Shown here in pieces: positions 1,307-28,059 of a stretch of DNA of 52,895 nt. Source of the DNA: an uncultured Clostridia bacterium (GTDB lineage: Bacteria > Bacillota > Clostridia > Oscillospirales > Ruminococcaceae); contig CANRAO010000009.1 in NCBI GenBank assembly GCA_947628615.1, positions 1 through 52,895 on the forward strand, written 5' to 3'. The notes beneath the pieces are model-generated. The model saw nothing but the letters and a program-made list of their open reading frames with translations. It was not told where the DNA came from and did not search any database. Numbering within the stretch: position 1 is the first letter of the stretch; every line of letters begins with the position of its first letter. Both the position numbers and the translations under genes were made by a program.

Positions 1307-2281
1307 TTATTGCTTTCCCTCATCATTCAGCCATTTAGCCGCATCAAGAGCATGATAGGTAATGATAATATCTGCACCTGCTCTTTTTATACACAAGAGA
1401 TTTTCCATAACAATTCTCTTTTCATCAATGATGCCCGTTTTTGCAGCAGACTTGACCATTGAATACTCTCCGCTGACATTATATGCGGCAATGGGAAGAT
1501 TACATATCTCCCTTGCTGATTTCAAAATATCAAGGTAAGCAAGTGCAGGCTTTATTATTATCATGTCTGCACCCTCATCTATATCGTCGAGAATTTCACG
1601 CATAGCCTCTCTGCTATTTGCACAGTCCATTTGGTATGTTTTTCTGTCACCGAATTTCGGGGTGGATTCAGCTGCCTCTCTGAAAGGGGAATAGTATTCC
1701 GATGCAAATTTTGCACTGTAAGACATAATTGGAATATCAATATATCCATTCTCGTCAAGTATTTTTCTGATAGCTTTCACACGTCCGTCCATCATATCAG
1801 AGGGAGCAACAATATCTGCTCCTGCTTTAGCAAGACTTACCGCCATTTTTGCCAGCAAGGGAAGTGTTTCATCATTGAGTATTTTGTAGTTGCTGACTAC
1901 TCCGCAGTGACCGTGTGAAGTGTATTCACAAAGACAGACGTCCGCAATTACTATAAGCTCAGGATAGTTTTTCTTGATGTATTTTATTGCTTTCTGGGTT
2001 ACTCCGTTATCGTCATAAGCACAGGACGCCTTATCATCCTTGTGAGCAGGAATTCCGAAAATAAGCAGTCCTGAAATACCGCTTTCTGATATTTGCTGTA
2101 GAATATCGTCAAGCCTGTCAATTGAATATCTATAGATCCCCGGCAATGATTGTACGGGGGTTTTTATGTTTTGTCCTTCTTCAACAAATAAAGGGTAAAT
2201 TAAATCACTTTTGCTGAGTTTTGTTTCACGCACCATTCTGCGCATCTGAGGGCTGACTCTCAGCCTTCTGAATCGATTCAT
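1307..2281 (-). CDS. hemB: Porphobilinogen synthase (5-aminolevulinate dehydratase)
   Basis: 324 residues, normal for HemB. It condenses two 5-aminolevulinate molecules into porphobilinogen in the cytoplasm. Visible hallmarks are the start RFRRLRVSPQMRRMVRET, the zinc-type cysteine cluster C116, C118 and C126 in DVCLCEYTSHGHCG, and the two active-site lysines K191 (SYSAKFAS) and K244 (IIKPALAY). The ATG is preceded by GGAGG at 9 bases. The first 56 bases of the gene lie inside the 3' end of cobA-hemD, an unusually long overlap for a bacterial operon. It is the last gene of a four-gene minus-strand operon for siroheme. Confidence 0.96.
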   Translation of the reverse strand: MNRFRRLRVSPQMRRMVRETKLSKSDLIYPLFVEEGQNIKTPVQSLPGIYRYSIDRLDDILQQISESGISGLLIFGIPAHKDDKASCAYDDNGVTQKAIKYIKKNYPELIVIADVCLCEYTSHGHCGVVSNYKILNDETLPLLAKMAVSLAKAGADIVAPSDMMDGRVKAIRKILDENGYIDIPIMSYSAKFASEYYSPFREAAESTPKFGDRKTYQMDCANSREAMREILDDIDEGADMIIIKPALAYLDILKSAREICNLPIAAYNVSGEYSMVKSAAKTGIIDEKRIVMENLLCIKRAGADIIITYHALDAAKWLNDEGKQ

Positions 2282-3758
2282 TTGCTGTGTCCTCCAAAAT
2301 TAAATCTATTATTCCTTCAACAGAGCTTTCAGCGGGAATTTTGAAATCGGCGTTTTTATATTCTTTTAGTCTGTTTCCGGCAACCTTTCCTATGCAAATG
2401 ATTTTTGTGCGTTCTGAAATCTCATTTCCTGCATAGAAATAATTCTTTATTCCGCCGGCACTTGTAAATACGATATAATCTGTTTCGGCTGTTATCGGGT
2501 GTTCCGCTTTTTCTGCGTAAACAGGGCAGTAAGATGAAATATCGTCGTAGGATATTCCTTTTTCATCAAGCGGCATAAGAAGCTCTTTCGAGCCCTCTGA
2601 GGAGCGAAGAAAAAGAACCCTTTTTTCTTTTGAAACGTTTTTTGCAACAGTCTCTCCCAAGGCTTTTGATGTGAATTTTTCAGGTATCAAATCAGGATAG
2701 ATTCCTGAGCTTTCAAGTACCTTCGCCGTACCTGTTCCGATTACCGCAATTTTTATGCTGCCTATATTTCTTATATCAATTTTTAATTCCCTATACCGTT
2801 TTAAGAATATTTCTGCGCCGTTGGGACTAGTCAGTACAAGAAACCCGTATGATGATATATTTCTTAGCGCATTATCAAAAGCGGCGGCATCTTCACATTC
2901 TTTAATATTCAGCCGAACGCTCTTATAAACCCTTGCCCCAAGACATTCAAGTTTTGATGAAAGTTTGTTCTGTATTTTTTCTGTTCCTGTTACTGTGACG
3001 GTAATTCCCTCCAGAGGTGCATGATAAGTGGGCGAAAAATCATATCGTGCGGTTTCTCCGATTACAATTACAGCGGGAGTTTTAAGCCCTGCATTTTTTG
3101 CCGCATTCGCTATGCGGTCAAGGCTTTCACGAACGATTTGTTGAGTTTTGTATCCGCAGTTTGAAATTACAGCGGCAGGAGTGTCCTTGCACATTCCGCC
3201 TGCAAGGAGTCCATCTACGATTTTTTCAAGATTTCTAAGACCCATAAGAATTACAAGCGTTCCATTTAGCTTGGCGTATTTCTCTAAATTTTTCGGCATT
3301 AAATCATTTGATGTGTGACCTGTTATTACATGAAAACTGCGGCTTATATTCCTATGAGTTACCGGAATTCCAAAAAGCTCGGCAACTGCTATTGATGATG
3401 ATATTCCCGGAATAACTGTATACGGAATGTTGTTCTCCCTCAGAGCAATTATTTCCTCACCGCCCCGACCGAAAACAAACGGATCCCCTCCCTTCAGCCG
3501 TGCAACAGTTTTTCCCTCAAGAGCCTTATAAACAAGTATCTTGTTAATTTCCTCCTGAGGAATGGTATGACTTCCTGCACGTTTTCCTACGTGGATTTTT
3601 TCTGCACCTTTTGGGATAAAATCCAAAAGTCTCATATCTGTAAGAGAATCAAAAACAACTGTGTCACATTGCTTTAAGGCTCTCATTCCACGCAGAGTGA
3701 TAAGATCGTATTCTGCACAGCCTGCTCCGATAATAAATACCTTTCCTATTATTCTCAT
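2226..3758 (-). CDS. cobA-hemD: Uroporphyrinogen-III C-methyltransferase / uroporphyrinogen-III synthase fusion
   Basis: 510 residues, a two-domain fusion common in clostridia. Residues about 4-245 are a SAM-dependent uroporphyrinogen-III methyltransferase (SUMT), with the GAGCAEYDLITLRG start, RLKGGDPFVFGRGGEE and the PVTHRNISRSFHVITGH segment. Residues about 250-495 are a HemD-type uroporphyrinogen-III synthase (the FLVLTSPNGAEIF and DYIVFTSAGGIKNYF repeats). Together they close the linear tetrapyrrole to uroporphyrinogen III and methylate it to precorrin-2, directing flux to siroheme or cobalamin rather than heme. The start overlaps hemC by 4 bases (ATGA). The last ~18 residues (Glu/Ser/Gln-rich) overlap hemB and look like a dispensable tail. 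Confidence 0.95.
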   Translation of the reverse strand: MRIIGKVFIIGAGCAEYDLITLRGMRALKQCDTVVFDSLTDMRLLDFIPKGAEKIHVGKRAGSHTIPQEEINKILVYKALEGKTVARLKGGDPFVFGRGGEEIIALRENNIPYTVIPGISSSIAVAELFGIPVTHRNISRSFHVITGHTSNDLMPKNLEKYAKLNGTLVILMGLRNLEKIVDGLLAGGMCKDTPAAVISNCGYKTQQIVRESLDRIANAAKNAGLKTPAVIVIGETARYDFSPTYHAPLEGITVTVTGTEKIQNKLSSKLECLGARVYKSVRLNIKECEDAAAFDNALRNISSYGFLVLTSPNGAEIFLKRYRELKIDIRNIGSIKIAVIGTGTAKVLESSGIYPDLIPEKFTSKALGETVAKNVSKEKRVLFLRSSEGSKELLMPLDEKGISYDDISSYCPVYAEKAEHPITAETDYIVFTSAGGIKNYFYAGNEISERTKIICIGKVAGNRLKEYKNADFKIPAESSVEGIIDLILEDTANESIQKAESQPSDAQNGA

Positions 3759-4618
3759 AGCTGTGAAACCAGCTCCTTTGCAAGCTGTTTAATTTGTAAA
3801 ATATCCGACGCTTTGGATATTACTCTATTCGGATCTACAGACGCTTTTAATGTGACCTTTCCGTCTTTATGTATTGCCAATGCCCCAAGCGGTACAGAGC
3901 AGTCTCCGTTAAGAAGCGTTACTATCTCACGCTCTGCTTCAAAGCATATCTGAGTTTCCTTATGAGTAACTGACTGTACAATTTCTGATACATAAGATTT
4001 TGATTTACACTCTAGTGCTATAATTCCCTGACATGGAGCAGGCATAGATTCGTCACTGTCAAAAAAACGGAACTTCCAGCCGTCGGCTTCAGTTATTCCC
4101 AGACGTTCAAGTCCTGCGGTGGCAACAATAATTCCGTCATACTCTCCGCAGGCAAGCTTGTTAAGTCTTGTGTCAACATTTCCTCGAATGTCCGCAAAAG
4201 AAGCATTTTTATAAAGACGGGCAAAATTCATTCGTCTGCGAAGACTTCCTGTTCCGACGGTAAACGCAGTTTGAGAATTGTATTCGGTCTGAGGCATAGT
4301 TACAAGTACGTCTCTAAAATCGCCTCTGGGCAGAACTGCTGATATTTCCAGCCCATCGCTAAGCAGGTACGGCAAATCCTTTGCGCTGTGAACTGCTATA
4401 TCAATTTTTCCCGATTGTAAAGCATCTTCGATTTTCCCGATGAATACACCTTTTCCTCCGATATCAGACAGCGGAGTATTCAGCAGTATATCGCCTTTTG
4501 TGGTGATGGGTACAATTTCAGTTTCAATTTCGGGAAATTTATTTTTAATTGCATTTATTGCTAAGTCAGTCTGCGCTATGGACAGTCTGCTTTTTCGTGT
4601 ACCTATTCTAAGTTTCAT
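3755..4618 (-). CDS. hemC: Hydroxymethylbilane synthase (porphobilinogen deaminase)
   Basis: 287 residues, slightly short of the usual 300-310. It polymerises four porphobilinogen units into hydroxymethylbilane. Visible features are the N-terminal RIGTRKSRLSIAQTD, the catalytic Asp81 in VHSAKDLP, the arginine-rich GTGSLRRRMNFARL, and Cys240 in LLNGDCSVPLGA, the attachment site of the dipyrromethane cofactor. The start codon abuts the stop of the upstream precorrin-2 dehydrogenase gene with no spacer, and the stop overlaps cobA-hemD by 4 bases, so translation of the three is tightly coupled. Confidence 0.96.
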   Translation of the reverse strand: MKLRIGTRKSRLSIAQTDLAINAIKNKFPEIETEIVPITTKGDILLNTPLSDIGGKGVFIGKIEDALQSGKIDIAVHSAKDLPYLLSDGLEISAVLPRGDFRDVLVTMPQTEYNSQTAFTVGTGSLRRRMNFARLYKNASFADIRGNVDTRLNKLACGEYDGIIVATAGLERLGITEADGWKFRFFDSDESMPAPCQGIIALECKSKSYVSEIVQSVTHKETQICFEAEREIVTLLNGDCSVPLGALAIHKDGKVTLKASVDPNRVISKASDILQIKQLAKELVSQL

Positions 4619-5224
4619 CTATATAAATTCCTCTATAAGTGTTTTTATTTGCTTGTCATCGGTTTTTCCGCCGAGAAGCATTTCAAGCAGTTTTTCCTGT
4701 ACCGCCTGTCTTTTTTGCTGTGTTGGGATTTTTTCTTTAATAAGCGGGCGGTATTTACCCAAAATACTAACTGCGTCAAGATTTTTTTCATCTAAGAGCT
4801 GTTCGATCCGCTCTCTGAAATATTTGGCAAAAAGCGGACTTTTTCCCCCCGTAGAAATTCCTACGGTTATATCATCCGAGCAGACGAGAGAAGGGAAAAG
4901 AAAAGTGCATTTTTCCTTGTCGTCAACCGTATTTACTGGGATCTTTCTTTCTTTGCAAAGACGGAAAATTTCATTGTTTGCATTTTCATCTCCTGTGGCT
5001 GATATTACAAAATCTGCACCGTCAAGATCTGATGGTGCAAATTTTCTGCGTATGATTTCAATTTTTTGATTATCAGAAATCTCTTTGCAGACTTCAATGG
5101 AAACTACTTTGATCTTTACTCCAAATGGTGAAAGCTTTTCAATTTTTCTAAGTGCTACTTTTCCGCCGCCGATTATCAAACAACTAAGGTTTTCTATATC
5201 AACAAAAAAAGGAAAATATCCCAT
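4619..5224 (-). CDS. Precorrin-2 dehydrogenase / sirohydrochlorin ferrochelatase (CysG N-domain/Met8p-like)
   Basis: 201 residues, the size of stand-alone Met8p/YlnF-type proteins. It oxidises precorrin-2 to sirohydrochlorin with NAD+, and some members also insert iron to give siroheme. The N terminus YFPFFVDIENLSCLIIGGGKVALRK is the typical start with the Rossmann GGG at 19-21. The VNTVDDKEKCTFLFPS segment (about 97-112) holds the conserved Asp used for catalysis in Met8p, followed by the GISTGGKSPLFAKYFRERIE substrate-site motif. First gene of the minus-strand operon, with GGAGG upstream of the ATG. No separate ferrochelatase is visible, so this protein may do both steps (inference). Confidence 0.92.
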   Translation of the reverse strand: MGYFPFFVDIENLSCLIIGGGKVALRKIEKLSPFGVKIKVVSIEVCKEISDNQKIEIIRRKFAPSDLDGADFVISATGDENANNEIFRLCKERKIPVNTVDDKEKCTFLFPSLVCSDDITVGISTGGKSPLFAKYFRERIEQLLDEKNLDAVSILGKYRPLIKEKIPTQQKRQAVQEKLLEMLLGGKTDDKQIKTLIEEFI

Positions 5225-5329: not shown

Positions 5330-5776
5330 TCATATATAATACATATATTCGTTTTCACTATTTGCAGTACGGCATTGCTCAGCAACCTCAGCAAGAGTGA
5401 TTTTTTTAACGAAATCCTGTAAATATAAATTCATTTTATCCCACAAACATTCGTTGACCGTTGTTTTGAAACTAGAATTATCCTGCGAATCATCAATATA
5501 AGAACCGCTTAGAATTGTTATATCAAGCGCATTTATTATATCAAAGAAAGTGATTTTGTCAGACGGTCTTGCCAGAACATATCCGCCTCTGGCTCCTTTT
5601 TGACCTCGTATAAGATTTGCCTGTTTAAGCGCAATAAGTATGTGCTCAAGATATTTTGCGGAAATATTGTGACGTTCTGATATACCTGCAATAGAAACCG
5701 CCTTGCCGTTATTGGAATTTATCGCGATGTCTGCAAGAGCAATTATTCCGAATTCTACTTTTGTTGAAACTTTCAT
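5330..5776 (-). CDS. Rrf2-family transcriptional regulator (CymR/IscR-like)
   Basis: 148 residues from the ATG at 5776; a TTG-initiated version 10 codons longer is possible but less likely because its GGGGTGA is only 2 bases from the codon. Residues 1-70 form the Rrf2 winged helix (KVSTKVEFGIIALADIA, then KYLEHILIALKQANLIRGQK and GARGGYVLARP). Only two cysteines occur in the effector region (C110, C135), not the three-Cys cluster of [2Fe-2S] IscR, so it more resembles CymR-type cysteine-metabolism regulators. It sits between the siroheme operon and the divergent sulfur operon and probably controls both (inference). Confidence 0.88.
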   Translation of the reverse strand: MKVSTKVEFGIIALADIAINSNNGKAVSIAGISERHNISAKYLEHILIALKQANLIRGQKGARGGYVLARPSDKITFFDIINALDITILSGSYIDDSQDNSSFKTTVNECLWDKMNLYLQDFVKKITLAEVAEQCRTANSENEYMYYI

Positions 5777-5936
5777 AATGTTTACGTGCCTTTTTTCAGG
5801 CAGCAATTCACCCCAAACTAATTTTAATTCATATAAAACATATTGTATTAGTAGTTATTATATCATACTATTTTAAAATTTGCAATAGCTATATTACGTC
5901 TAATTATTAATAAATATTTAATTTCTATTAAACCTA

Positions 5937-5965
5937 TTGACTTACTAGGACAAGTGGTTTATAAT
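5937..5965 (+). promoter_or_regulatory. Sigma-A promoter of the sulfur-assimilation operon
   Basis: TTGACT at 5937-5942 and TATAAT at 5960-5965 are separated by 17 bases. Transcription would start about 50 bases before metY. The imperfect dyad CCTATTGACTTACTAGG at 5933-5949 covers the -35 box, as expected for a repressor site. No riboswitch-sized leader is present. Confidence 0.75.
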
Positions 5966-6021: not shown

Positions 6022-7236
6022 ATGAATTTTAATACAGCTTTGTTGCATGGTGTATCTCAAGCAGATAAAAACGGTGCGACCATTGAACCGATATATCAGG
6101 TAAGTGCATTTGGGTTTGAGACTGCTGAGAAACTGGAAAAAGTATTTAATAATAGGGCATCAGGTTTTGCATACACAAGAATAAGCAATCCGACCGTCGA
6201 ATCGTTTGAAAGGAAAATATCTGCTCTTGAAAAGGGAATAGGGTCAGTTGCCTGTTCATCGGGAATGGCTGCTGTTACAATGTCATTACTGAATATTCTT
6301 GAGGCAGGCGATGAAATTATTGCAGGTTCTTCGCTGTTTGGCGGAACGATAGATTTGTTCGGTGATTTGTTGGCGTTCGGAATTAAAACCAAGTTTGTAA
6401 ATAATGTTACTGCGGAGGAAGTTGAACCACTAATCAATGATAATACGAAGGCGGTTTTTGCTGAGCTTATCGGAAATCCCCGACTTGACGTTGTGGATTT
6501 AAAGAGTGTGTCAGAGCTTGTTCATAGCAAGGGTGTTCCTTTTGTTGTGGACAGCACAACTGCCACCCCGTATCTTATAAATCCGTTTGATTATGGTGCG
6601 GATATTGTTGTACATTCCTCTTCAAAATACATAAACGGCAGCGGAAATTCAATTAGCGGAATAATTATTGACAGTGGAAATTTCAAATGGGATACCGCAA
6701 GGTATAAGGTGTTGGAAGAATATAAAAAATACGGAAAATTTGCTTATATAGCTAAGCTTAGAAACGGTATTTGGAGGAATGTGGGCTGTTGTCTTGCACC
6801 GATGAATGCTTTTTTAAATTCTATAGGACTTGAAACACTGGGTCTGAGAATGGAGCGTCTTTGCAATAACGCTTTACGTCTTTCAGAGTATTTTGAAATG
6901 GTGGACGGCATTGACGTTAATTACCCTGCTCTGAAATCAAGCAAGTATTATGATTTGGTTCAGAAACAGTTCGGAGGAAAGGGCGGAGCGATCCTTACAA
7001 TCCAAACAGGGAGCAAGGAGAGTGCATTTAAGCTGATAAATAATCTTAAATTTGCAATAAACGCTACAAATATAGGTGATATAAGAACTCTTGTGATTCA
7101 CCCTGCCAGCACTATTTATGCTCACTCTACCGAGCAGCAGAAAATCAATGCAGGAGTTTTCGAGGATACCATCAGAATAAGCGTCGGCATTGAGGATCTG
7201 ATCGATGATTTCAGTCAGGCATTATATTACATATAG
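6022..7236 (+). CDS. Cys/Met-metabolism PLP enzyme, MetY-like O-acetylhomoserine sulfhydrylase
   Basis: 404 residues of the Cys/Met metabolism PLP family (fold type I). Y51 and R53 in FAYTRISNPT bind the cofactor phosphate of the neighbouring subunit, SSGMAAV (about 79-85) and D177 fit the family, and K202 in SSSKYINGSGN is the Schiff-base lysine. It is followed by a ThiS-like carrier, an activating enzyme and a JAMM protease, the partner set of MetY in the Wolinella thiocarboxylate pathway. The likely reaction is therefore transfer of carrier-bound sulfur to O-acetylhomoserine (inference from context). An O-acetylserine substrate cannot be excluded. The site AGGTGAT with a 6-base gap to ATG is a strong ribosome binding site. 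Confidence 0.88.
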   Translation: MNFNTALLHGVSQADKNGATIEPIYQVSAFGFETAEKLEKVFNNRASGFAYTRISNPTVESFERKISALEKGIGSVACSSGMAAVTMSLLNILEAGDEIIAGSSLFGGTIDLFGDLLAFGIKTKFVNNVTAEEVEPLINDNTKAVFAELIGNPRLDVVDLKSVSELVHSKGVPFVVDSTTATPYLINPFDYGADIVVHSSSKYINGSGNSISGIIIDSGNFKWDTARYKVLEEYKKYGKFAYIAKLRNGIWRNVGCCLAPMNAFLNSIGLETLGLRMERLCNNALRLSEYFEMVDGIDVNYPALKSSKYYDLVQKQFGGKGGAILTIQTGSKESAFKLINNLKFAINATNIGDIRTLVIHPASTIYAHSTEQQKINAGVFEDTIRISVGIEDLIDDFSQALYYI

Positions 7237-7248
7237 GAGATTATGATT

Positions 7249-8112
7249 ATGGCAATAGATTATGCTACCCTTAAAAAGGGCGGATTTATGAGACAAAAGC
7301 AAAAGAATAATTTTTCGCTAAGACTGCGTGTGGTCGGCGGAAACCTTTCTGCGGTTCAGCTTGCAAAAATTGCTGAGGTTGCTGATAAGTTCGGGGACGG
7401 TCATGTTCATTTGACCTCTCGGCAAAGCGTAGAAATTCCGTTTATCAAGCTTGACGATATAGATGAAGTTAAAAAGGCTCTCGGTGAGGGCGGAGTAGAA
7501 CCCGGCGTTTGCGGGCCGAGAGTGCGTACCGTTACGGCGTGTCAAGGCGAGGCGATTTGCCCGAGCGGATGTATTGACACTTACGGACTTGCCAAAGAGC
7601 TTGATAACAGGTATTTTGCAAGGGAACTGCCGCACAAGTTCAAGTTTGGCATAACGGGCTGTCAGAACAACTGTCTTAAAGCAGAGGAAAACGACCTTGG
7701 AATTAAAGGCGGAATCAAGGTTAGTTGGCGTGAAAGCGATTGTATTCAATGCGGTGTGTGCGTTAAAGCCTGCCGAACTGAGGCACTCTCGCTTATTGAC
7801 GGAAAAATAGTTCTGGATAAGGAGAAGTGCAATTACTGCGGAAGATGTCTAAAGGCTTGTCCTACCGAGGCGTGGGACGCAGTACACGGATACATAGTTT
7901 CGTTCGGAGGACTGTTTGGAAACAGCATAAGCAAAGGCGAGACTATTATTCCGTTTATTGATAACCACGATAAGCTAATGGAGGTTTGCGACGCAGCTAT
8001 TCAGTTTTTCGACGACAATGCAAATGCAGGAGAGCGTTTCAAGTTTACTATAGAACGAATAGGCAAAGAAAAATTTAAAGAAGAAATTCTGGAGGCGTAT
8101 AATAATGGCTAA
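7249..8112 (+). CDS. Compact siroheme sulfite reductase with two 4Fe-4S ferredoxin clusters
   Basis: 287 residues from ATG 7249, which has AGGAG at 9 bases; the ATG two codons earlier is only 3 bases from it. Numbered from that earlier ATG, the nitrite/sulfite reductase core carries C100-x5-C106 (TACQGEAIC) and C140-x3-C144 (GCQNNC), the classic ligand set for siroheme coupled to a 4Fe-4S cluster. It is followed by two ferredoxin motifs, C167/C170/C173/C177 and C196/C199/C202/C206. It resembles AsrC and other short single-module reductases, not the about 570-residue CysI. It should reduce sulfite to sulfide for assimilation. It overlaps the TusA-like gene by 8 bases. The divergent operon makes its siroheme. 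Confidence 0.9.
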   Translation: MAIDYATLKKGGFMRQKQKNNFSLRLRVVGGNLSAVQLAKIAEVADKFGDGHVHLTSRQSVEIPFIKLDDIDEVKKALGEGGVEPGVCGPRVRTVTACQGEAICPSGCIDTYGLAKELDNRYFARELPHKFKFGITGCQNNCLKAEENDLGIKGGIKVSWRESDCIQCGVCVKACRTEALSLIDGKIVLDKEKCNYCGRCLKACPTEAWDAVHGYIVSFGGLFGNSISKGETIIPFIDNHDKLMEVCDAAIQFFDDNANAGERFKFTIERIGKEKFKEEILEAYNNG

Positions 8113-8350
8113 TTTTAATATTGATGATACTGTGGACATCACCGACGTGGTATGTCCGACAACATTTGTAAAGGCAAAGGTTGCACTTGAAGAGCTTGAC
8201 GACGGACAGATTTTATCTGTAAAAATGAATGACGGCGAGCCTGTGCAGAATGTTCCGAGAAGTATTAAGGAAGAAGGTCATCAGATTTTAAAGCTGATTG
8301 ACAACGAGGACGGTACATATAATCTGATAGTAAAAAAGGTTGGTGATTAG
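8105..8350 (+). CDS. TusA/SirA-like sulfur-carrier protein
   Basis: 81 residues. The fold signature is DVVCPTTFVKAKVALEEL, with Cys17 where TusA-family proteins carry a persulfide; the usual CPxP is CPTT here, a variant seen in TusA-like proteins of anaerobes. GGAGG precedes the ATG. Lying between sulfite reductase and thioredoxin genes, it may pass persulfide or sulfide sulfur from the reductase or a desulfurase toward the thiocarboxylate carrier (inference). It could instead serve selenium or molybdenum-cofactor metabolism, but no such genes are near. Confidence 0.85.
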   Translation: MANFNIDDTVDITDVVCPTTFVKAKVALEELDDGQILSVKMNDGEPVQNVPRSIKEEGHQILKLIDNEDGTYNLIVKKVGD

Positions 8351-8351
8351 A

Positions 8352-8678
8352 ATGTCGGTTAGAGTAAATGCAGACAATTTTGATACCGAGGTTTTGCAGT
8401 CAGAGACTACAGTTCTGGCAGATTTTTATTCAGACAGCTGTGTACCGTGCAAAAGGCTTTCGCCTGTGTTGGCGGAAATTGAAGATACGCTTTCAGATAA
8501 AATCAAGGTAGTTAAAATCAATATAAATTTTGACAGCGAGCTTGCTGAAAAGTATGAGATACAGTCTGCACCAACGATTTTGTTTTTCAAAAACGGAAGT
8601 GAAGTATCGAGACTTTCAGGGGCAGTTAAAAAAGAAGAATTAATAGAAACCATTAATAATTTACAGTTAGGAGAATGA
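8352..8678 (+). CDS. Thioredoxin-like protein
   Basis: 108 residues from the ATG at 8352, one base after the TusA-like gene's stop; a TTG start four codons upstream is less likely. The thioredoxin fold is clear: VLADFYSDSCVPCKRLSPVL holds C30-V-P-C33 (WCGPC in classical thioredoxin, with the Trp replaced by Ser here), then the cis-Pro segment QSAPTILFFKNGSEV. It probably supplies electrons for sulfite reduction or resolves persulfides or disulfides in the sulfur relay. A thioredoxin reductase gene closes the same operon, so the pair forms a dedicated redox couple (inference). Confidence 0.92.
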   Translation: MSVRVNADNFDTEVLQSETTVLADFYSDSCVPCKRLSPVLAEIEDTLSDKIKVVKININFDSELAEKYEIQSAPTILFFKNGSEVSRLSGAVKKEELIETINNLQLGE

Positions 8679-8681
8679 ACG

Positions 8682-8888
8682 ATGACAATTACAGTTGCAG
8701 GAGTACAAAAGGAATACGAGGACGGGATCAATGTTGCTAAGCTCATTGAGCTTGAGGACGTTGAAACACCGGAATACGTTACGGTAACAATAAACGACGA
8801 CTTTGTCGACAGAGGAGCATTTGAATCCACAATTATCATTGACGGCGACAACGTGGAATTTCTTTATTTTATGGGAGGCGGTCATTAA
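8682..8888 (+). CDS. ThiS/MoaD-like sulfur-carrier protein with protected C terminus (HcyS-like)
   Basis: 68 residues with the beta-grasp pattern of ThiS/MoaD (MTITVAGVQKEYEDGINV...VTVTINDD) and a glycine tail, but ending GGGH rather than free Gly-Gly. In Wolinella HcyS the last residue must be removed by the JAMM protease HcyD before the diglycine can be adenylated. The terminal His68 (or Gly67-His68) is predicted to be removed likewise. It overlaps the activating-enzyme gene by one base (TAATG), consistent with near-equal production of carrier and activator. It is unlikely to be the thiamine ThiS because no thiG, thiH or thiE is nearby. Confidence 0.88.
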   Translation: MTITVAGVQKEYEDGINVAKLIELEDVETPEYVTVTINDDFVDRGAFESTIIIDGDNVEFLYFMGGGH

Positions 8889-9697
8889 TGGCATTTACAA
8901 ACGAACAGCTTGAACGTTACTCACGCCATATCATTTTAAAAGAGGTAGGCTCAAAGGGACAGAAAAAACTGCTTGATTCAAGTGTTCTTATAATCGGTGC
9001 CGGAGGATTAGGTGCACCTGCCGCAATGTATCTGGCAGCTTCAGGCGTTGGAACCATTGGGATTGCCGATGCTGATGAGGTTGATCTCTCAAATTTACAG
9101 AGACAGATCATTCATTCTACAAATGATGTAGGCAAGGCGAAGGTTCTGTCTGCTAAGGAAACTATGGAGGCTATGAACCCTGATGTTACAGTAAATACAT
9201 ATCGTACCTTTGTTTCAAGCGATAATATAATGGATCTCATAAAGGATTATGATTTTATAATAGACGGTACGGATAATTTCCCTGCAAAGTTTCTTATAAA
9301 TGACGCCTGCGTAATGGCAAAAAAACCGTTTTCACACGCAGGAATTATTCGCTTTAAAGGACAGCTTATGACATATGTTCCCGGGCAGGGACCGTGCTAT
9401 CGCTGTGTGTTTAAAAATCCTCCGCCAAAAGACGCTGTTCCTACCTGCAAGCAGGCAGGCGTAATCGGTGCAATGGGCGGTGTGATCGGCAGTCTTCAGG
9501 CAATGGAGGCTATCAAGTATATTCTCGGAATAGGAGATTTGCTGACGGGATATTTGCTTACCTACGATGCAATCAATATGGAGTTTCATAAAATTAAGCT
9601 GCCAACCTATACTCACAATTGTGCAGTCTGCGGAGATAACCCTACTATTACAGAGCTTATTGATTACGAACAGGCAGAATGTGATGGTGTATTATGA
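8888..9697 (+). CDS. ThiF/MoeB/HesA-type adenylyltransferase for the sulfur carrier (HcyF-like)
   Basis: 269 residues, an E1-like activating enzyme. VLIIGAGGLGAPAAMYLAASGV (from about 33) is the ATP-binding loop and DADEVDLSNLQRQIIH the ATP/Mg segment. Zinc ligands are C170, C173, C245 and C248 (CYRC, CAVC), and C187 in AVPTCKQAGV lies at the conserved cysteine position. It should adenylate the carrier's C-terminal glycine so that sulfide forms a thiocarboxylate. There is no rhodanese domain, so sulfide must come from elsewhere, here the sulfite reductase encoded in the same operon. It overlaps the JAMM protease gene by 4 bases. Confidence 0.93.
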   Translation: MAFTNEQLERYSRHIILKEVGSKGQKKLLDSSVLIIGAGGLGAPAAMYLAASGVGTIGIADADEVDLSNLQRQIIHSTNDVGKAKVLSAKETMEAMNPDVTVNTYRTFVSSDNIMDLIKDYDFIIDGTDNFPAKFLINDACVMAKKPFSHAGIIRFKGQLMTYVPGQGPCYRCVFKNPPPKDAVPTCKQAGVIGAMGGVIGSLQAMEAIKYILGIGDLLTGYLLTYDAINMEFHKIKLPTYTHNCAVCGDNPTITELIDYEQAECDGVL

Positions 9698-10113
9698 TTA
9701 AGCTGAAAAAATCTGATTATCTAAAAATGCTTGCTCATGCTGAAAAAGAACTGCCAAACGAGGCTTGCGGGCTTATCGCGGGAGTGATTAGTGGTGATGG
9801 AGCAAATAAAGTTATTGAAAAGGTTTATCTTCTCACCAATATTGACCAGTCCAATGAGCATTTTTCACTTAATCCCAAAGAACAGCTTGCGGCGGTCAAG
9901 GATATGCGTATAAACGGATTTGTACCTTTAGGCAACTGGCATTCACATCCTGAATCACCGTCAAGACCGTCTGATGAAGATAAAAGACTTGCCTATGACA
10001 GCAAAGCAAGTTATATGATTCTGTCGCTTATGGATAGAGAAGATCCTATACTTAATTCTTTTAAAATACAAGGCGATAAAGCTGATAAAGAAGAGCTGAT
10101 AATAGAGGAATAG
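9694..10113 (+). CDS. JAMM/MPN+ metalloprotease acting on the sulfur carrier (HcyD/Mec+-like)
   Basis: 139 residues with a complete JAMM zinc site: E23 in NEACGLIAG, then H83-S-H85 and, after 7 residues, S93-x2-D96 in NWHSHPESPSRPSDED. In HcyD and mycobacterial Mec+ this protease trims the carrier's C terminus and cuts the carrier-amino-acid adduct to free homocysteine or cysteine. Both roles fit here because the carrier ends GGGH and a MetY-like enzyme is encoded. The start overlaps the activating-enzyme gene by 4 bases (ATGA), and the stop is 3 bases before the next start. Confidence 0.92.
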   Translation: MIKLKKSDYLKMLAHAEKELPNEACGLIAGVISGDGANKVIEKVYLLTNIDQSNEHFSLNPKEQLAAVKDMRINGFVPLGNWHSHPESPSRPSDEDKRLAYDSKASYMILSLMDREDPILNSFKIQGDKADKEELIIEE

Positions 10114-10116
10114 CAT

Positions 10117-11013
10117 ATGTATGATATTATAATAATCGGCAGTGGTCCGGCGGGTCTTTCGGCGGCGGTATATGCAAGCCGTGCACGGCTCAAATCGATT
10201 GTCGTTGAAAAGGATTATGCCGGCACAGGACAGATTGCAGTCAGCGAATGTGTTGACAACTATCTTGGTTTACCTGAAATTAGCGGCTATGATTTGGGTG
10301 AAAAATTCCGTGAACACGCAGAAAAATTCGGTGCAGAGTTTTATGATGGAGAAGCGGTTTCAATTTCACGCTCAGACGGTTTTTACACTGTCAGTTTCAA
10401 GAACGGCAAAACACTTGACGGAAAAACAATAATATACGCCGCAGGCACATCTTACCGAAGACTTGACATTCCCGGTGGAAAACTGCAGGGAGTATCATAC
10501 TGTGCGGTCTGCGATGGTATGTTTTACAAGAATAAAACCGTTGCGGTAATCGGCGGAGGAGATACTGCACTTGAAGACGCTTTATATATGTCAAGAATTG
10601 CAAATAAGGTTTATCTGATTCATCGCAGAGACGAGTTCAAAGCAAACAAGGCTTTGCAGGAAAAGGTAAAGGATACACCTCTAATAGAGCTTGTGCTGAA
10701 TTCTGAGGTTTCTGAAATTATAGGTGAGAAGAGAGTTGAGACAATTAAAATTTTGCAGTCTGGCAGAGAAAAAGAACTTACGATTAACGGCGTGTTCGTA
10801 GCAATAGGAAGCATACCAAACACCACACTGTTAAATGGTATATGCAGTCTTGACAAGAGCGGGTATATAATTGCCAACGAAGACGGAATTACTTCTGCTG
10901 AGGGCATTTTTGCGGCAGGAGATGTAAGAACAAAAAAGCTCAAACAGGTTGTAACCGCCGTATCAGACGGTACTAATTGTGTGAAATCTGTAGAAGAGTA
11001 TCTAGCGTATTAG
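10117..11013 (+). CDS. trxB: Thioredoxin reductase
   Basis: 298 residues. The FAD-binding GSGPAGLSAAVYASRA (8-23), redox-active C129-A-V-C132 (SYCAVCDG), NADPH-binding VIGGGDTALEDALYMSRIA and the C-terminal FAAGDVRTKKLKQVVTAVSDG are all present. The length is close to bacterial TrxB (about 310). The usual CATC is CAVC. As the last gene of the sulfur operon, paired with the thioredoxin gene above, it probably feeds electrons from NADPH into sulfite or persulfide reduction (inference). It may also be the cell's general TrxB. Confidence 0.93.
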   Translation: MYDIIIIGSGPAGLSAAVYASRARLKSIVVEKDYAGTGQIAVSECVDNYLGLPEISGYDLGEKFREHAEKFGAEFYDGEAVSISRSDGFYTVSFKNGKTLDGKTIIYAAGTSYRRLDIPGGKLQGVSYCAVCDGMFYKNKTVAVIGGGDTALEDALYMSRIANKVYLIHRRDEFKANKALQEKVKDTPLIELVLNSEVSEIIGEKRVETIKILQSGREKELTINGVFVAIGSIPNTTLLNGICSLDKSGYIIANEDGITSAEGIFAAGDVRTKKLKQVVTAVSDGTNCVKSVEEYLAY

Positions 11014-11317: not shown

Positions 11318-11848
11318 TCAAGGTTCGCCAAACCTCTGGAAGTGAACAATCTCACGTTCTCTAAGGAATTTGATAGGATCTCGAACGTCAGGGTCATCGG
11401 CAAGTCTTAGTATGTTATCATAAGTAAGTCGGGCTTTTTGCTCAGCTGCTAAGTCCTCTGTCAGATCGGTAATAGGATCTCCTGTTGACTGGAATGTTGC
11501 AGCCGAAAACGGCATTCCCGATGCTGCCTGTGGATACAGTCCTGTTGTGTGGTCAACAAAATATGTGTCAAAGCCGCCTTCTTTGATTTCTTTTATAGAA
11601 AGGTTTCTTGTGAGCTGATAAACTATGGCACTTACTATTTCCATGTGACCAAGTTCTTCGGTGCCGATATCTGACAGTATAGCTTTGACCTCGTTGCAGG
11701 GAGCAGTATATCTTTGCGATAAATAACGCATTGCAGCACCTAACTCTCCGTCAGGACCGCCAAATTGTGTAATGATAACTTTTGCCAGAGCAGGATTAGG
11801 ATTTTTTATGTTTACCGGATATTCTAATTTTTTCTTATATTGCCACAT
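11318..11848 (-). CDS. cotJC: Spore coat protein CotJC (manganese-catalase-like)
   Basis: 176 residues of the manganese-catalase-like CotJC family: MWQYKKKLEYPVNIKNPNP at the start, GTEELGHMEIVSA and EQKARLTYDNIL with the carboxylate and histidine metal ligands, and REREIVHFQRFGE near the end. CotJC associates with the spore coat of endospore formers and with related catalases. The reading stops right after FGEP, about 10-15 residues before the usual family end. A neighbouring frame continues past the stop with LDVQN and then KYDFYY, so a late frameshift is possible. Third gene of the cotJABC operon; its start overlaps the cotJB stop by one base. Confidence 0.93.
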   Translation of the reverse strand: MWQYKKKLEYPVNIKNPNPALAKVIITQFGGPDGELGAAMRYLSQRYTAPCNEVKAILSDIGTEELGHMEIVSAIVYQLTRNLSIKEIKEGGFDTYFVDHTTGLYPQAASGMPFSAATFQSTGDPITDLTEDLAAEQKARLTYDNILRLADDPDVRDPIKFLREREIVHFQRFGEP

Positions 11849-12105
11849 TAATTCTCACTCCTTTCCCAGGGCCATGGTTTTGTTGCCCATGTCCATTCAT
11901 CATCGCTGTTTACTCCGCTTACCGTTATCGGTGCATATTTGCTTTCATATTCGGCAACTGCTTCTTCATATTCTTTTTGATGCTTTCTAAAGTATTCAAG
12001 AGCCTCTTTGCAGGTTGGATGACTGTCAAGAAACAACTGTGCCTCAATTACTGCGAAACCGTGCATTCTTACCGACTTTAACAGCTTACTTTTTTCTGCA
12101 TCCAT
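11848..12105 (-). CDS. cotJB: Spore coat protein CotJB
   Basis: 85 residues, the normal CotJB size. The core GFAVIEAQLFLDSHPTCKEA, then ALEYFRKHQKEYEEAVAEYE, and a tryptophan-rich tail (WTWATKPWPWE) are the family pattern. It is needed with CotJA and CotJC for the CotJ layer of the spore coat. It overlaps cotJA by 20 bases and cotJC by one base, so all three are co-translated. Expression from a mother-cell sporulation sigma factor is expected from Bacillus, but the promoter was not identified with confidence. Confidence 0.94.
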   Translation of the reverse strand: MDAEKSKLLKSVRMHGFAVIEAQLFLDSHPTCKEALEYFRKHQKEYEEAVAEYESKYAPITVSGVNSDDEWTWATKPWPWERSEN

Positions 12106-24103: not shown

Positions 24104-24511
24104 GTGAAAAGATTTTCGGATAGAAAGATTCGATCAACATCAGCGGTTGAGCTAGCAAAGCTGGCTTTGGGCAGAATGCTTTTTTCTGATAAAAGCGACG
24201 CAATAAGACTTTCTTTGAGCGACAGCAGCGATATGAATACGAAGTCATTAAACAGCGACAGTCTGCTTGCAGTTTCTGATATTAAGAGGAACAAGGACGG
24301 CGGCGTTGATATAAAGCTGTTTGATATGATCAAGGCGGCTGAGCTTATGTTTGAAATAGGCAAGGAGGAAAACGGGAATGAGGAAACAGGAGCAAATTTC
24401 CTCGAGGGCTTTTTGAAATCTGCAAAACAGCTTAGCTTATCACAAGATACTGCGAAAGAAACCCCAGAACAAAGTGATGTTTCCTATTCTGATGAGGTGT
24501 GTGAAGTTTGA
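24104..24511 (+). CDS. Putative phage terminase small subunit
   Basis: 135 residues from a GTG at 24104, chosen for AAGGAG 8 bases upstream; a longer frame to 24035 lacks a binding site. The protein is charged, with a helical N-terminal half (KRFSDRKIRSTSAVELAKLALGR) and an acidic tail. Identification rests mainly on position: its stop overlaps the large-terminase start by 4 bases, the usual place of terS, and its size fits. DNA binding to start packaging is the family role. Confidence 0.55.
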   Translation: MKRFSDRKIRSTSAVELAKLALGRMLFSDKSDAIRLSLSDSSDMNTKSLNSDSLLAVSDIKRNKDGGVDIKLFDMIKAAELMFEIGKEENGNEETGANFLEGFLKSAKQLSLSQDTAKETPEQSDVSYSDEVCEV

Positions 24512-25776
24512 TCAAAAACACAGCTTACAGAAAGTATTCAAAAAAGCAGATGCAGGTTATGACATGGTGGGCGGACGACCGCTTTAAGGACAAGGATGTA
24601 ATAATCTGCGACGGTGCGGTAAGAAGCGGAAAGACTACCTGTATGGCATTTTCGTTTGTTATGTGGGCAATGACTGAGTTTTCCGGAAGGACATTCGGAT
24701 TATGCGGAAAAACAATCACCTCCCTCAAGCGTAATTTAGTAGAGCCTTTAAAGGAAATGCTCAGGCAGACGGGTCTTAAACTGAACGAAAATTCAACTAA
24801 AAACTTTCTTGAAGTTTCAAACGGAAGGTATAGAAACAGGTTTTATTATTTCGGCGGAAAGGACGAAAGCTCTGCATCTCTTATTCAGGGAATAACGCTT
24901 GCAGGTGTTCTGCTTGACGAGGTCGCTCTTATGCCGAGGTCGTTTGTTGAACAGGCAATAGCAAGATGTTCGGTAACAGGCTCTAAGCTGTGGTTTAACT
25001 GCAATCCCGATAATCCATATCACTGGTTTAAAAAAGAGTGGATAGATAAAATAGAGGAGAAAAACGGTCTGTATTTAAAGTTTACTTTAAATGATAATCC
25101 TTCATTGAGCAAGCAGGTAATAAAGCGTTATCACAATCTTTATTCCGGAGCTTTTTATGAGCGTTTCGTACTAGGTAACTGGTCAAGCGTTTACGGCTGC
25201 GTTTATCCTATGTTTGACCCCGAAATTCATACCTTTACACAGTCGCCCGAAAACATTGAAAGATATGCTGTATCCTGCGACTATGGAACTGTCAATCCTT
25301 CGTCATTCGGGCTTTGGGGACTTTCAGACGGTGTTTGGTACCGTTTAAAGGAATACTATTATAATTCCCGAACTGAAGGCTTTCAACGAACTGATGAGGA
25401 GCATTACAAAGGCTTGGCTGAGCTTTGTTCTGACTGTAAAATCAAACCGGAGGCGGTTGTGTGCGATCCGTCGGCTGCTTCGTTTATTGAGTGCATAAGA
25501 CGGCACGGAGTTTTCAATGTCATGCCTGCTAAAAATGATGTTATGAGCGGTATTCGCAAGGTGAGCGACGCTATATCAGACGGGAAAATTAAAATATCAA
25601 GATCCTGTACTGATACGTTAAGAGAATTTACTCTTTACCGCTGGGATGAAAAAAGCGGATCGGACTGTCCTGTTAAGGAAAACGACCACGCAATGGACGA
25701 TATAAGATACTTTGTTTCTGCTTTTGTATATACGTCGGGTGACGATTTCTTTGTAATGTCACTTGACAGAAAGTAA
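24508..25776 (+). CDS. Phage terminase large subunit (PBSX-type)
   Basis: 422 residues. Walker A is GAVRSGKT (36-43), Walker B GVLLDEV with D137 and E138, and the C-terminal RNase-H-like nuclease shows D258 (SCDYGT), D320 (VVCDPSAASF) and the DHAMDDIRYF segment (393-402). All catalytic motifs are intact, so the packaging motor may still be functional. TTG start overlapping the putative small subunit gene by 4 bases. First clear member of a compact head-gene cassette. Confidence 0.93.
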   Translation: MIKNTAYRKYSKKQMQVMTWWADDRFKDKDVIICDGAVRSGKTTCMAFSFVMWAMTEFSGRTFGLCGKTITSLKRNLVEPLKEMLRQTGLKLNENSTKNFLEVSNGRYRNRFYYFGGKDESSASLIQGITLAGVLLDEVALMPRSFVEQAIARCSVTGSKLWFNCNPDNPYHWFKKEWIDKIEEKNGLYLKFTLNDNPSLSKQVIKRYHNLYSGAFYERFVLGNWSSVYGCVYPMFDPEIHTFTQSPENIERYAVSCDYGTVNPSSFGLWGLSDGVWYRLKEYYYNSRTEGFQRTDEEHYKGLAELCSDCKIKPEAVVCDPSAASFIECIRRHGVFNVMPAKNDVMSGIRKVSDAISDGKIKISRSCTDTLREFTLYRWDEKSGSDCPVKENDHAMDDIRYFVSAFVYTSGDDFFVMSLDRK

Positions 25777-25910
25777 TGAGCTGAAGCTATATTCTAAGAA
25801 AGGATTATAGAGTGAATAATTTTCACGCGGGATTTGTGCCTTTAAGCCATAATGAATAGGCAAAATGCTTTCAGTATTTTAAGGCACAAACCTAAAAGGG
25901 AACAATTTTA

Positions 25911-27095
25911 ATGAAACTTAAATTTAAAGAAAAAGAACCGAAGGCAGTAAAGTTTGAACCTATTGCATCTTCAGCTGAAAGGGTAAACGGTAAAGAGGTA
26001 TTTCGGCTTGCGCCTACAGCTTATACCTTTGAGCAGGATTTTTATGAGACTTTGAGAAGTCAGGTTCCGATAATTGACGCTTGTATAGGGAAAATTGTCA
26101 GACTGACAGGAGGTTTTAAACTGGTTTGCGAGGATAAGAGATACCAAACCGAACTTGAAGAGTTTATGGAAACGATTCCTGTAGGAATTTCAGGCTCTTC
26201 GTTAAGTACTTTTATGGATATTCATCTGGATCAGCTTTTGACATACGGAAAGGCGATAGGGGAGATCCTCATTGACCCTAAGACAAAGCAGGTATGCGGG
26301 ATTTACAATGCAGACCCTACTCATTTTGAGGTCAAGGAGGGCGAAACCCCTTGCGACAGACGTATTTACGCAATAAGCGGAGCAAATGACAGGCTAATCG
26401 AATATCCTGAGCGGATAGTTTATACAGCGCTTAACCCAAACCCTAAAAACTCAAACGGTGTTTCGATATTCAGAGGGCTTCCCAGTCTTGCAGGTATACT
26501 AATGAAGGTTTACGACTGTATAGGTCAGAACTTCGACAGAATAGGCAATATAAGATATGCGGTAACTTATAAGCCGTCAAATGAGAACGATAAGGCATTT
26601 GCAAAAGAACGTGCAATGCAGATTGCGAAAGAATGGTCGGACGGAATGAACGCATCACGAAACGGAATTGTTAAGGATTTTGTTGCAGTGGGAGATGTTG
26701 AGATTAAGGTCATAGGCGCTGATAATCAGATCATTGATACAGATATTCCGGTAAGACAGCTCTTAGAACAGATGATTTCAAAGCTTGCAATTCCGCCGTT
26801 TTTGCTGGGGCTTAATTGGTCTACGACCGAGAGAATGAGTCAGCAGCAATGCGATATTCTAACAAGCGAGCTTGAGTATTACCGCAGACTTTTAACACCT
26901 GTTATTCGCAGAATATGCGAAACATATCTTCATCTTTTAGGAGCAGAAAGCAGAGTGTTTGTAGAGTGGGATAATATCAATCTTCAGGACGAATCTGAGC
27001 TTGCAAAGGCAAGGCTTTATAATGCTCAGGCAGAAGCGCTGGAAATAGAGAATGAAAGGAGAAAGACAAATGGCGAAGTCAGCGAAGCTGAGTAA
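25911..27095 (+). CDS. Phage portal protein
   Basis: 394 residues with the composition and motifs of portal proteins: QVPIIDACIGKIVRLTGGF near the N terminus, LDQLLTYGKAIGEIL, YNADPTHFEV, and KLAIPPFLLGLNWSTTERMS in the C-terminal part. Portals form the dodecameric ring through which DNA enters the head and on which tail connectors dock. A 134-base gap separates it from the terminase. The end overlaps the protease gene by 26 bases. Confidence 0.88.
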   Translation: MKLKFKEKEPKAVKFEPIASSAERVNGKEVFRLAPTAYTFEQDFYETLRSQVPIIDACIGKIVRLTGGFKLVCEDKRYQTELEEFMETIPVGISGSSLSTFMDIHLDQLLTYGKAIGEILIDPKTKQVCGIYNADPTHFEVKEGETPCDRRIYAISGANDRLIEYPERIVYTALNPNPKNSNGVSIFRGLPSLAGILMKVYDCIGQNFDRIGNIRYAVTYKPSNENDKAFAKERAMQIAKEWSDGMNASRNGIVKDFVAVGDVEIKVIGADNQIIDTDIPVRQLLEQMISKLAIPPFLLGLNWSTTERMSQQQCDILTSELEYYRRLLTPVIRRICETYLHLLGAESRVFVEWDNINLQDESELAKARLYNAQAEALEIENERRKTNGEVSEAE

Positions 27096-28038: not shown

Positions 28039-28059
28039 CTTTAAGAAAAGGAGAAAATT

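Follow-up and report, generated by a model that had tools for sequence, protein, structure and literature searches.

The window analysed here is a 52,895-base stretch of contig CANRAO010000009.1 from an uncultured Clostridia bacterium of the Ruminococcaceae. On its plus strand, positions 6022 to 11013 carry an operon whose eight genes encode, in order, a MetY-like pyridoxal 5′-phosphate (PLP) enzyme, a siroheme sulfite reductase (SIR), a TusA-like protein, a thioredoxin, a ThiS-like sulfur carrier, an E1-type activating enzyme, a JAMM metalloprotease, and a thioredoxin reductase (Table 1). All eight open reading frames (ORFs) are intact, with gaps of 1 to 6 bases or overlaps of 1 to 8 bases between them, and all eight proteins exceed Pfam's cut-offs (NCBIfam models were also used); the operon of overlapping or abutting genes described in the initial annotation was thus borne out. 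From its gene content and its relatives, we regard this as a dedicated assimilatory operon that would form homocysteine from sulfite with protein-carried sulfur, at a probability of about 0.72.

Relatives were drawn from a search of genome contigs with the E1 protein, and the named loci referred to below are the best 80 of 521 confirmed relatives; more exist. Among the 59 named loci with enough flanking sequence, all eight genes were found in 29, which argues against a chance grouping, and in 25 they were contiguous on one strand in the window's order, in agreement with the conserved order that the initial annotation had suggested looking for.

Table 1. Features of the operon and its upstream flank, in window coordinates
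Feature	Position	Strand	Basis
HemB, delta-aminolevulinic acid dehydratase	1307-2281	-	PF00490, 500 bits
CobA-HemD fusion (tetrapyrrole methylase / uroporphyrinogen-III synthase)	2226-3758	-	PF00590, 160 bits; PF02602, 142 bits
HemC, porphobilinogen deaminase	3755-4618	-	PF01379, 227 bits
Siroheme synthase N-terminal type (SirC/Met8-like)	4619-5224	-	PF13241 and TIGR01470, over cut-off
Rrf2-family regulator, CymR-like, divergent	5330-5776	-	PF02082, 97 bits; Rrf2 superfamily 98 vs 73; CymR model 90.6 vs 195
Conserved candidate operator AAACCTATTGANNTACTA, covering the -35 box of the putative metY promoter	5930-5947	+	Exact match
MetY-like PLP enzyme, thiocarboxylate type (proposed homocysteine synthase)	6022-7236	+	PF01053 (Cys_Met_Meta_PP), 360 bits
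Small AsrC/Fsr-like SIR with inserted ferredoxin-like domain	7243-8112	+	NIR_SIR, 113 bits; NIR_SIR_ferr; Fer4
TusA-like sulfur-transfer protein, DVVCPTT motif	8105-8350	+	PF01206, 68 bits
Thioredoxin, DSCVPCK active site	8352-8678 (ORF list: TTG start at 8340)	+	PF00085, 97 bits; TIGR01068, 103 vs cut-off 97
ThiS-like sulfur carrier (HcyS-like), C-terminus MGGGH	8682-8888	+	PF02597, 40 bits, and TIGR01683, over cut-off
E1/MoeB/ThiF-type activating enzyme (HcyF-like)	8888-9697	+	PF00899, 292 bits; no rhodanese match
JAMM/JAB metalloprotease (HcyD-like), HSHPESPSRPSDED	9694-10113	+	PF14464 (Prok-JAB), 79 bits
Thioredoxin reductase-like flavoprotein, CAVCDG motif	10117-11013	+	PF07992 (Pyr_redox_2), 162 bits; TIGR01292, 335 vs cut-off 343, just under

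Synthase, carrier and predicted product

Krishnamoorthy and Begley reportedly described in 2011 a protein-thiocarboxylate synthesis of homocysteine in Wolinella succinogenes. The window shares with that pathway a carrier with a residue after Gly-Gly, an E1, a JAMM protease, a sulfite reductase, and a MetY that falls in the same clade and lacks the same loop segment; it differs in adding a thioredoxin and a thioredoxin reductase, in the AsrC/Fsr-like type of its reductase, and in having no adjoining sulfate-activation genes, while its relatives add an AprAB/CysDN or an encapsulin module. The likeness to the Wolinella scheme on which the initial annotation was built held up in the MetY tree and loop deletion, the carrier tail, the JAMM motif, and the acetyl type of the genome's MetA.

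The loop between the [ED][SG]G...[WF] motif and the next A[YF] was found to span 21 to 23 residues in all 82 full-length operon MetYs (23 in 80 of them). It has 23 residues in the window MetY, 22 in 3ri6, which we take to be the Wolinella MetY of the 2011 pathway, and 32 to 34 in 11 canonical MetYs, including both paralogues in the window's own genome. Near the C-terminal HPAS motif, the canonical T-H pair was replaced in 82 of 82 operon MetYs, mostly by T-I-Y (as in the window) or T-I-F, with V-I-Y in 3ri6. In a tree of 33 rows the operon MetYs and 3ri6 were grouped at 97/92 and the canonical MetYs formed a separate group at 98/89; when the loop and motif columns were removed (32 rows), the operon and 3ri6 group was recovered at 94/83, not starred. 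Three Fibrobacter MetY paralogues of another kind, with a loop of 9 residues, were set apart as the outgroup. Tree and common loop deletion together support the prediction that the operon MetY is a carrier-using type like that of Wolinella. The AlphaFold model of this protein (13-sequence alignment) had a mean predicted local distance difference test (pLDDT) score of 73.6, with residues 1-39, 44-57, 201-210, and 251-263 below 50; since residues 201-210 surround the presumed PLP lysine, the active-site entrance cannot be judged from the model. Two relatives, L096 and L100, encode MetYs of about 630 amino acids. At its C-terminus the L096 protein has an AraC-type DNA-binding domain (PF12833, 68 bits), and it is, as predicted from its domains, a synthase fused to a regulator; L100 was assigned by likeness. 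The operon metY of genome G143 is present only in fragments in the assembly (L049:6946-7900), with the SIR, TusA, thioredoxin, carrier, E1, and JAMM genes open.

A C-terminal Gly-Gly followed by at least one residue was present in the carriers of 93 of 93 loci (Q in 45, C in 14, R in 8, and others in 26), and the window's carrier has one residue past Gly-Gly; such a tail is what trimming by a JAMM protease requires, and it supports protein-thiocarboxylate homocysteine synthesis. No second ThiS was found in the window's own genome, in which the operon carrier is the only one detected. The metal motif of the window's JAMM protein is intact (NWHSHPESPSRPSDED), and the HSHP...S..D motif was kept in 91 of 92 homologues, the exception (L083) being cut by a contig end; the nearest solved protein is 2kks (159 bits). 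The E1 cysteine in PTC[KR]QAGV and two CxxC pairs were conserved in 94 of 94 proteins, and Pfam detected no rhodanese domain in the operon E1. TusA and thioredoxin usually carry CPxP and WCGPC active sites, respectively. The claim that all catalytic residues are intact needs correcting for TusA, which has CPTT, and for the thioredoxin, which has SDSCVPC; relatives share these forms, as Cys-Pro was kept in 90 of 90 TusA homologues and CxxC in 72 of 73 thioredoxins.

The proposed pathway would proceed in five steps: (i) the siroheme/Fe-S reductase, judging by its family, would turn sulfite into sulfide; (ii) the JAMM protease would trim the residue after Gly-Gly off the carrier; (iii) the E1 would adenylate the carrier C-terminus, and sulfur from a TusA persulfide or from sulfide would yield the carrier thiocarboxylate, with TusA perhaps substituting in carrier loading for the missing rhodanese domain; (iv) MetY would move the sulfur onto O-acetylhomoserine to give homocysteine, a step supported by the MetY tree, the loop, and the type of MetA; and (v) thioredoxin and its reductase would keep the cysteines of TusA, the E1, and the carrier side reduced. 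The MetA of this genome scored above the cut-off of the acetyl-type model NF047918 (500.5 versus 460.5) and under that of the succinyl type (452.7 versus 495), and O-acetylhomoserine should thus be available. MetQ-like genes, seen in 2 of the 80 named loci, lend this pathway slight support.

The CysO/Mec/CysM system of Mycobacterium likewise combines a carrier, a JAMM protease, and a PLP synthase, there a CysM-type enzyme, and its product is cysteine. The logic is alike, but the window's synthase belongs to the MetY family (PF01053) and not to the CysM-type (PALP) family. Cysteine, formed on O-acetylserine, might nonetheless be the main product of the window's machinery, given that the genome has CysE, that CysE- and CysK-type genes adjoin the core in several relatives, and that the best-scoring family model for the operon MetY is a joint O-acetylhomoserine/O-acetylserine model. 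We consider this unlikely in view of the grouping of the synthase with the Wolinella MetY rather than with CysM and of the genome's own CysK; the Wolinella paper, by its title, mentions methionine biosynthesis. It is less probable still, and in our view improbable, that the carrier, E1, and JAMM protein serve ubiquitin-like tagging, or thiamine or tRNA thiolation, while MetY takes free sulfide from the SIR. The SAMP-activating and desampylase models did match the E1 and the JAMM protein, but below cut-off (331.8 versus 450 and 70.5 versus 130 bits), and Iyer 2006 (PMC1779556), in the portion consulted, raised conjugation for JAB-linked systems; the operon MetY, however, shows the Wolinella-type loop deletion, and no E2-like gene was detected by Pfam among the operon's eight.

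Sulfite reductase and sulfur inlet

The SIR, of 289 amino acids, is AsrC/Fsr-like, and its closest solved relative is the Fsr 7npa (132 bits). It scored below the cut-off of the AsrC model (171.5 versus 324.1 bits), and with no AsrA- or AsrB-like gene among the operon's eight it is not classed as part of an AsrABC system. Its scores were far below the cut-offs for DsrA (76.6 versus 392.9 bits) and DsrB (100.2 versus 341.5 bits). The cysteine motif was present in 74 of 75 homologue rows, and no second sulfite reductase was found in the window's genome, in which the operon SIR is the only NIR_SIR protein detected. A family-level search gave a SIR match at E ≤ 1e-10 in 93 of 247 genomes, with full-length matches at no less than 55% identity in only 18, the window's own genome included. 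In 17 neighbourhoods of those matches, 13 showed the carrier, E1, and JAMM genes, three (L055, L056, and L058) had a SIR gene but no carrier genes, and one (L057) ends after TusA.

No match to an AprA-type adenosine 5′-phosphosulfate (APS) reductase was found in the window's genome, and the sole match there to the 3′-phosphoadenosine 5′-phosphosulfate (PAPS) reductase domain is a CysD. On these grounds APS reduction seems to be missing, and the likely inlet is sulfite that is either taken up by the cell or released from organosulfur compounds; the absence may instead reflect a gap in the assembly or an APS reductase of unknown type. In a control search, AprA was detected at 62 to 100% identity in 14 of the 18 genomes with this SIR (in two of them the match contains an in-frame TGA) and was not found in G000, G143, G065, and G180, of which the last two showed only weak hits with E above 1e-4. 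The AprA of L046 scored 947 versus 557 bits against NF005331, and its AprB-like partner fell short of the model's cut-off (61 versus 136). The initial annotation had proposed sulfite, thiosulfate, or an organosulfonate as the entry point. This is plausible for sulfite and organosulfur in this genome, where no sulfate-to-sulfite enzyme was found, but 29 of 47 loci with SIR also contain an AprA gene, and a sulfite-only inlet is thus not the rule for this operon.

Elsewhere in the genome (L145:5495-12487, on contig C3), one co-directional run encodes an NMT1-type ATP-binding cassette (ABC) transporter, CysD, a CysN-APS-kinase fusion, and a sulfotransferase-like protein, the latter recognized by eye only, with no Pfam hit; the adjoining transporter, CysD, and fusion genes suggest PAPS making. 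An arylsulfotransferase-like gene and an NMT1-type ABC transporter gene adjoin the operon in three loci without AprA (L120:1-4044, assigned in part by Pfam; L134:2-3775, by tblastn; and L049:3-4614, mostly by eye). As a common inlet of AprA-less loci this pair was set aside, being matched in only 2 of the 80 named loci (L120 and L134), and serves as a lead only.

A homologous cluster has been reported in Ruminococcus bromii L2-63 (01134-01158; PMC6378601, in the portion consulted), where twenty genes fell together in co-culture with an acetogen (log2 -1.39 to -3.29), a co-expression that counts in favour of the proposed pathway. These share with the window an Rrf2/IscR-like regulator, siroheme genes, thioredoxin, carrier, MoeZ, Mec, and thioredoxin reductase, and differ in including a sulfate transporter, CysDN, and AprA/AprB-like proteins, named there a fumarate-reductase-like protein and a ferredoxin. 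The tags 01147-01149, expected to be MetY, SIR, and TusA, do not occur in the main text of that report as consulted; we infer that L2-63 has the gene order of R. bromii 5AMG (L112) and ATCC 27255 (L128). That report interprets the cluster as serving dissimilatory sulfate reduction, and by extension the window's operon might use sulfite or sulfate as an electron sink, with the amino-acid genes incidental. The AprA of many relatives would fit such a use. It is nevertheless very doubtful here: the SIR is remote from DsrA and DsrB, no AprA was found in the genome, and the operon encodes MetY, the carrier, E1, and JAMM protein, a gene content that points to assimilation.

Several observations weigh against assimilation of sulfite into homocysteine through this operon. 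The pathway is a prediction from gene content and sequence comparison. The genome has CysE, CysK, MetA, and two further full-length canonical MetYs (on contigs C16 and C1), so homocysteine need not depend on the operon; with the genes of a free-sulfide route present, the operon is predicted to be an additional and not the sole genetic route. The initial annotation had held that a complete free-sulfide route, with the operon tied to another product, would refute its proposal; the retained genes bear this out in part. No SIR match was found in the three same-genus genomes listed (99% complete), which makes the operon dispensable, and SIRs of the same subfamily (55 to 60% identity) occur without carrier genes beside AprA/AprB/CysD/CysN in L055 and L058 and also in L056, on a contig that stops shortly past the SIR gene. 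The active sites of TusA and thioredoxin differ from the usual forms, and 3ri6 forms a long branch in both MetY trees (1.6 to 1.67), making its placement less sure. The genome assembly (1.86 Mb) is 93.5% complete, and gene absences are to that degree uncertain.

Distribution and the encapsulin link

Between the window and genomes of the genus to which L073 belongs (titled Fibrobacter), E1 identity was 79 to 89%; an E1 match at 1e-60 was present in 52 of 80 genomes of that genus, in one only via a second E1, of 43%. The E1 tree placed 13 Fibrobacter rows in one group (99) among Bacillota rows, the surrounding forks being weak. The operon core has likely been transferred between phyla, as judged from these comparisons. 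Treponema (L133) and Succinivibrionaceae (L138) are represented by one metagenome-assembled genome each and could be mis-binned.

Gene sets of this kind were grouped as class 4e by Iyer 2006 (PMC1779556), which in the portion consulted lists them in Wolinella and six low-GC Gram-positives, with SirA (TusA) always present. An E1 without rhodanese and a SirA/TusA gene place the window in this class, and the ThiS/MoaD-like carrier, JAB protein, sulfite reductase, and O-acetylhomoserine sulfhydrylase are likewise shared. The class 4e listing differs in naming sulfate/sulfite transporters, PAPS reductase, ATP sulfurylase, and APS kinase, and it names neither thioredoxin and thioredoxin reductase nor an encapsulin. 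Of the extensions to the Wolinella scheme that the initial annotation put forward, TusA and the clostridial occurrence had thus already been listed; the thioredoxin pair goes beyond that listing but was seen in the 2018 R. bromii table (PMC6378601, in part) beside the carrier, E1, and JAMM genes. The window is therefore a member of the Iyer 2006 kind with a thioredoxin/thioredoxin reductase pair and no APS branch, and not a first; such gene sets are already known, though seldom studied, and occur commonly in bacteria of the gut and rumen.

The main new observation is an encapsulin link in relatives. In the 41 named loci with 6.5 kb on both sides, the neighbours of the core were (i) SIR with AprA and CysDN in 18, SIR with AprA in 1, and SIR alone in 10; (ii) SIR with encapsulin or desulfurase in 4; (iii) encapsulin or desulfurase without SIR in 7; and (iv) none of these in 1. 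A family 2A encapsulin lies beside the core in 17 of the 80 named loci, on the strand of the E1 gene in 16 (L068:1533-12237, L064, L065, L067, L072, L077, L078, L082, L085, L090, L091, L099, L102, L121, L137, and L138) and on the other strand in L069. In these loci a shell gene and a cysteine desulfurase gene are joined to the MetY/TusA/carrier/E1/JAMM core, and most of the loci also have a ThiS-E1-rhodanese fusion gene and one of the serine-acetyltransferase type. The form without SIR occurs in Ruminococcus sp. YE71 and in Ruminococcus flavefaciens ATCC 19208 (L068). The latter locus encodes a serine-acetyltransferase-type protein (EpsC model 153.7 versus 150; CysE model under cut-off), the ThiS-E1-rhodanese fusion, the shell (PF19307, SrpI-like, 316 bits), and the desulfurase, followed by MetY, TusA, thioredoxin, carrier, E1, JAMM, thioredoxin reductase, and CysK. 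The desulfurase domain begins at residue 196, leaving a 195-residue N-terminal extension; the protein scored just under the cut-off of the cargo model NF041166 (790.5 versus 800) and over that of the SufS model. Family 2A encapsulin/cysteine desulfurase systems as described in PMC8346489 share the SrpI-like shell, the N-terminally extended desulfurase, the serine-acetyltransferase-type gene, and a rhodanese-bearing protein, and differ from these loci in that the core is unmentioned in the portion consulted. In PMC8049743, as far as available, the terms ThiF, JAMM, ubiquitin, and thiocarboxylate gave nothing. The link was not found in the literature searched, which excluded most subscription journals, so its novelty is not established. 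No encapsulin was seen in the window, the part of this genome searched for it.

Among the 59 loci with enough flank, the 12 without SIR had encapsulin in 10, TusA in 12, thioredoxin in 8, and thioredoxin reductase in 5; the 47 with SIR had them in 4, 47, 39, and 29, respectively. The retention of TusA, and often of thioredoxin, in loci without SIR suggests a role in carrier loading more than in sulfite reduction. In the raw table (2 loci with neither SIR nor encapsulin, 10 with encapsulin only, 43 with SIR only, and 4 with both) Fisher's test gave 9e-7, ignoring kinship; with the tree taken into account, only 3 independent pairs were found on starred branches (7 on all), with a median sign-test p of 0.5. 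The swap of SIR and encapsulin is a pattern, with no proven correlation. We tentatively suggest, at somewhat under even odds, that the core is a sulfur-source-neutral hub that has moved between phyla with exchangeable inlets in gut and rumen bacteria: sulfate by way of AprAB/CysDN with SIR, sulfite or organosulfur in the window, and sulfur held by a family 2A encapsulin with its desulfurase. The encapsulin form without SIR would then be a protein-borne transfer of sulfur from cysteine to homocysteine that draws on a sulfur store, with no cystathionine and no free sulfide.

Regulation, surroundings and significance

Ahead of metY, a sigma-70-like match (TTGACT-17-TATAAT) was identified at 5937-5965. 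It is a consensus match only, and 25 promoter-like matches were found in the region versus 16.9 expected, so chance matches occur. With up to 3 mismatches allowed, the operator-like element (Table 1) matched the window 3 times versus 1.27 expected, and 9 of 100 shuffles reached 3 matches. At the same stringency, 29 of 70 relatives had it in the 300 bases 5′ of metY (28 of the 51 with SIR and 1 of the 19 without) versus 0.65 in shuffles, a count that is descriptive because the element was derived from these same upstream regions. The divergent regulator passed the Rrf2 superfamily model and failed the CymR equivalog cut-off. Only 13 of 65 loci have a divergent Rrf2 gene no more than 800 bases from metY, and at least three siroheme genes are present in 13 of 52. 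The Rrf2 protein probably represses the operon through this candidate element over the -35 box. An Rfam search of the window, of L039, L146, and L152, and of the loci of the two metY paralogues detected two tRNAs only and no known riboswitch at gathering level. A copy of AAACCTATTGANNTACTA with 2 mismatches is present at L145 12724, possibly by chance.

Directly 3′ of the operon, at 11318-12105, lie genes for CotJB and for a Mn-catalase-family protein (by inspection of the CotJC type), which agree with the earlier description of the organism as a spore former and do not prove it. Phage terminase, portal, and capsid genes at 24508-29028, 13 kb from the operon, mark a prophage or remnant, and a BspA-type leucine-rich-repeat protein with a fibronectin type III domain is encoded at 42108-43799.

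If the proposed pathway is correct, protein-carried sulfur would be a common methionine route in well-known gut and rumen bacteria (R. bromii, R. callidus, R. flavefaciens, and Fibrobacter loci), and the published dissimilatory reading of the R. bromii cluster would be corrected. The core would further offer a testable destination for the sulfur handled by family 2A encapsulins; named strains are at hand for both forms, R. bromii ATCC 27255 and R. flavefaciens ATCC 19208.

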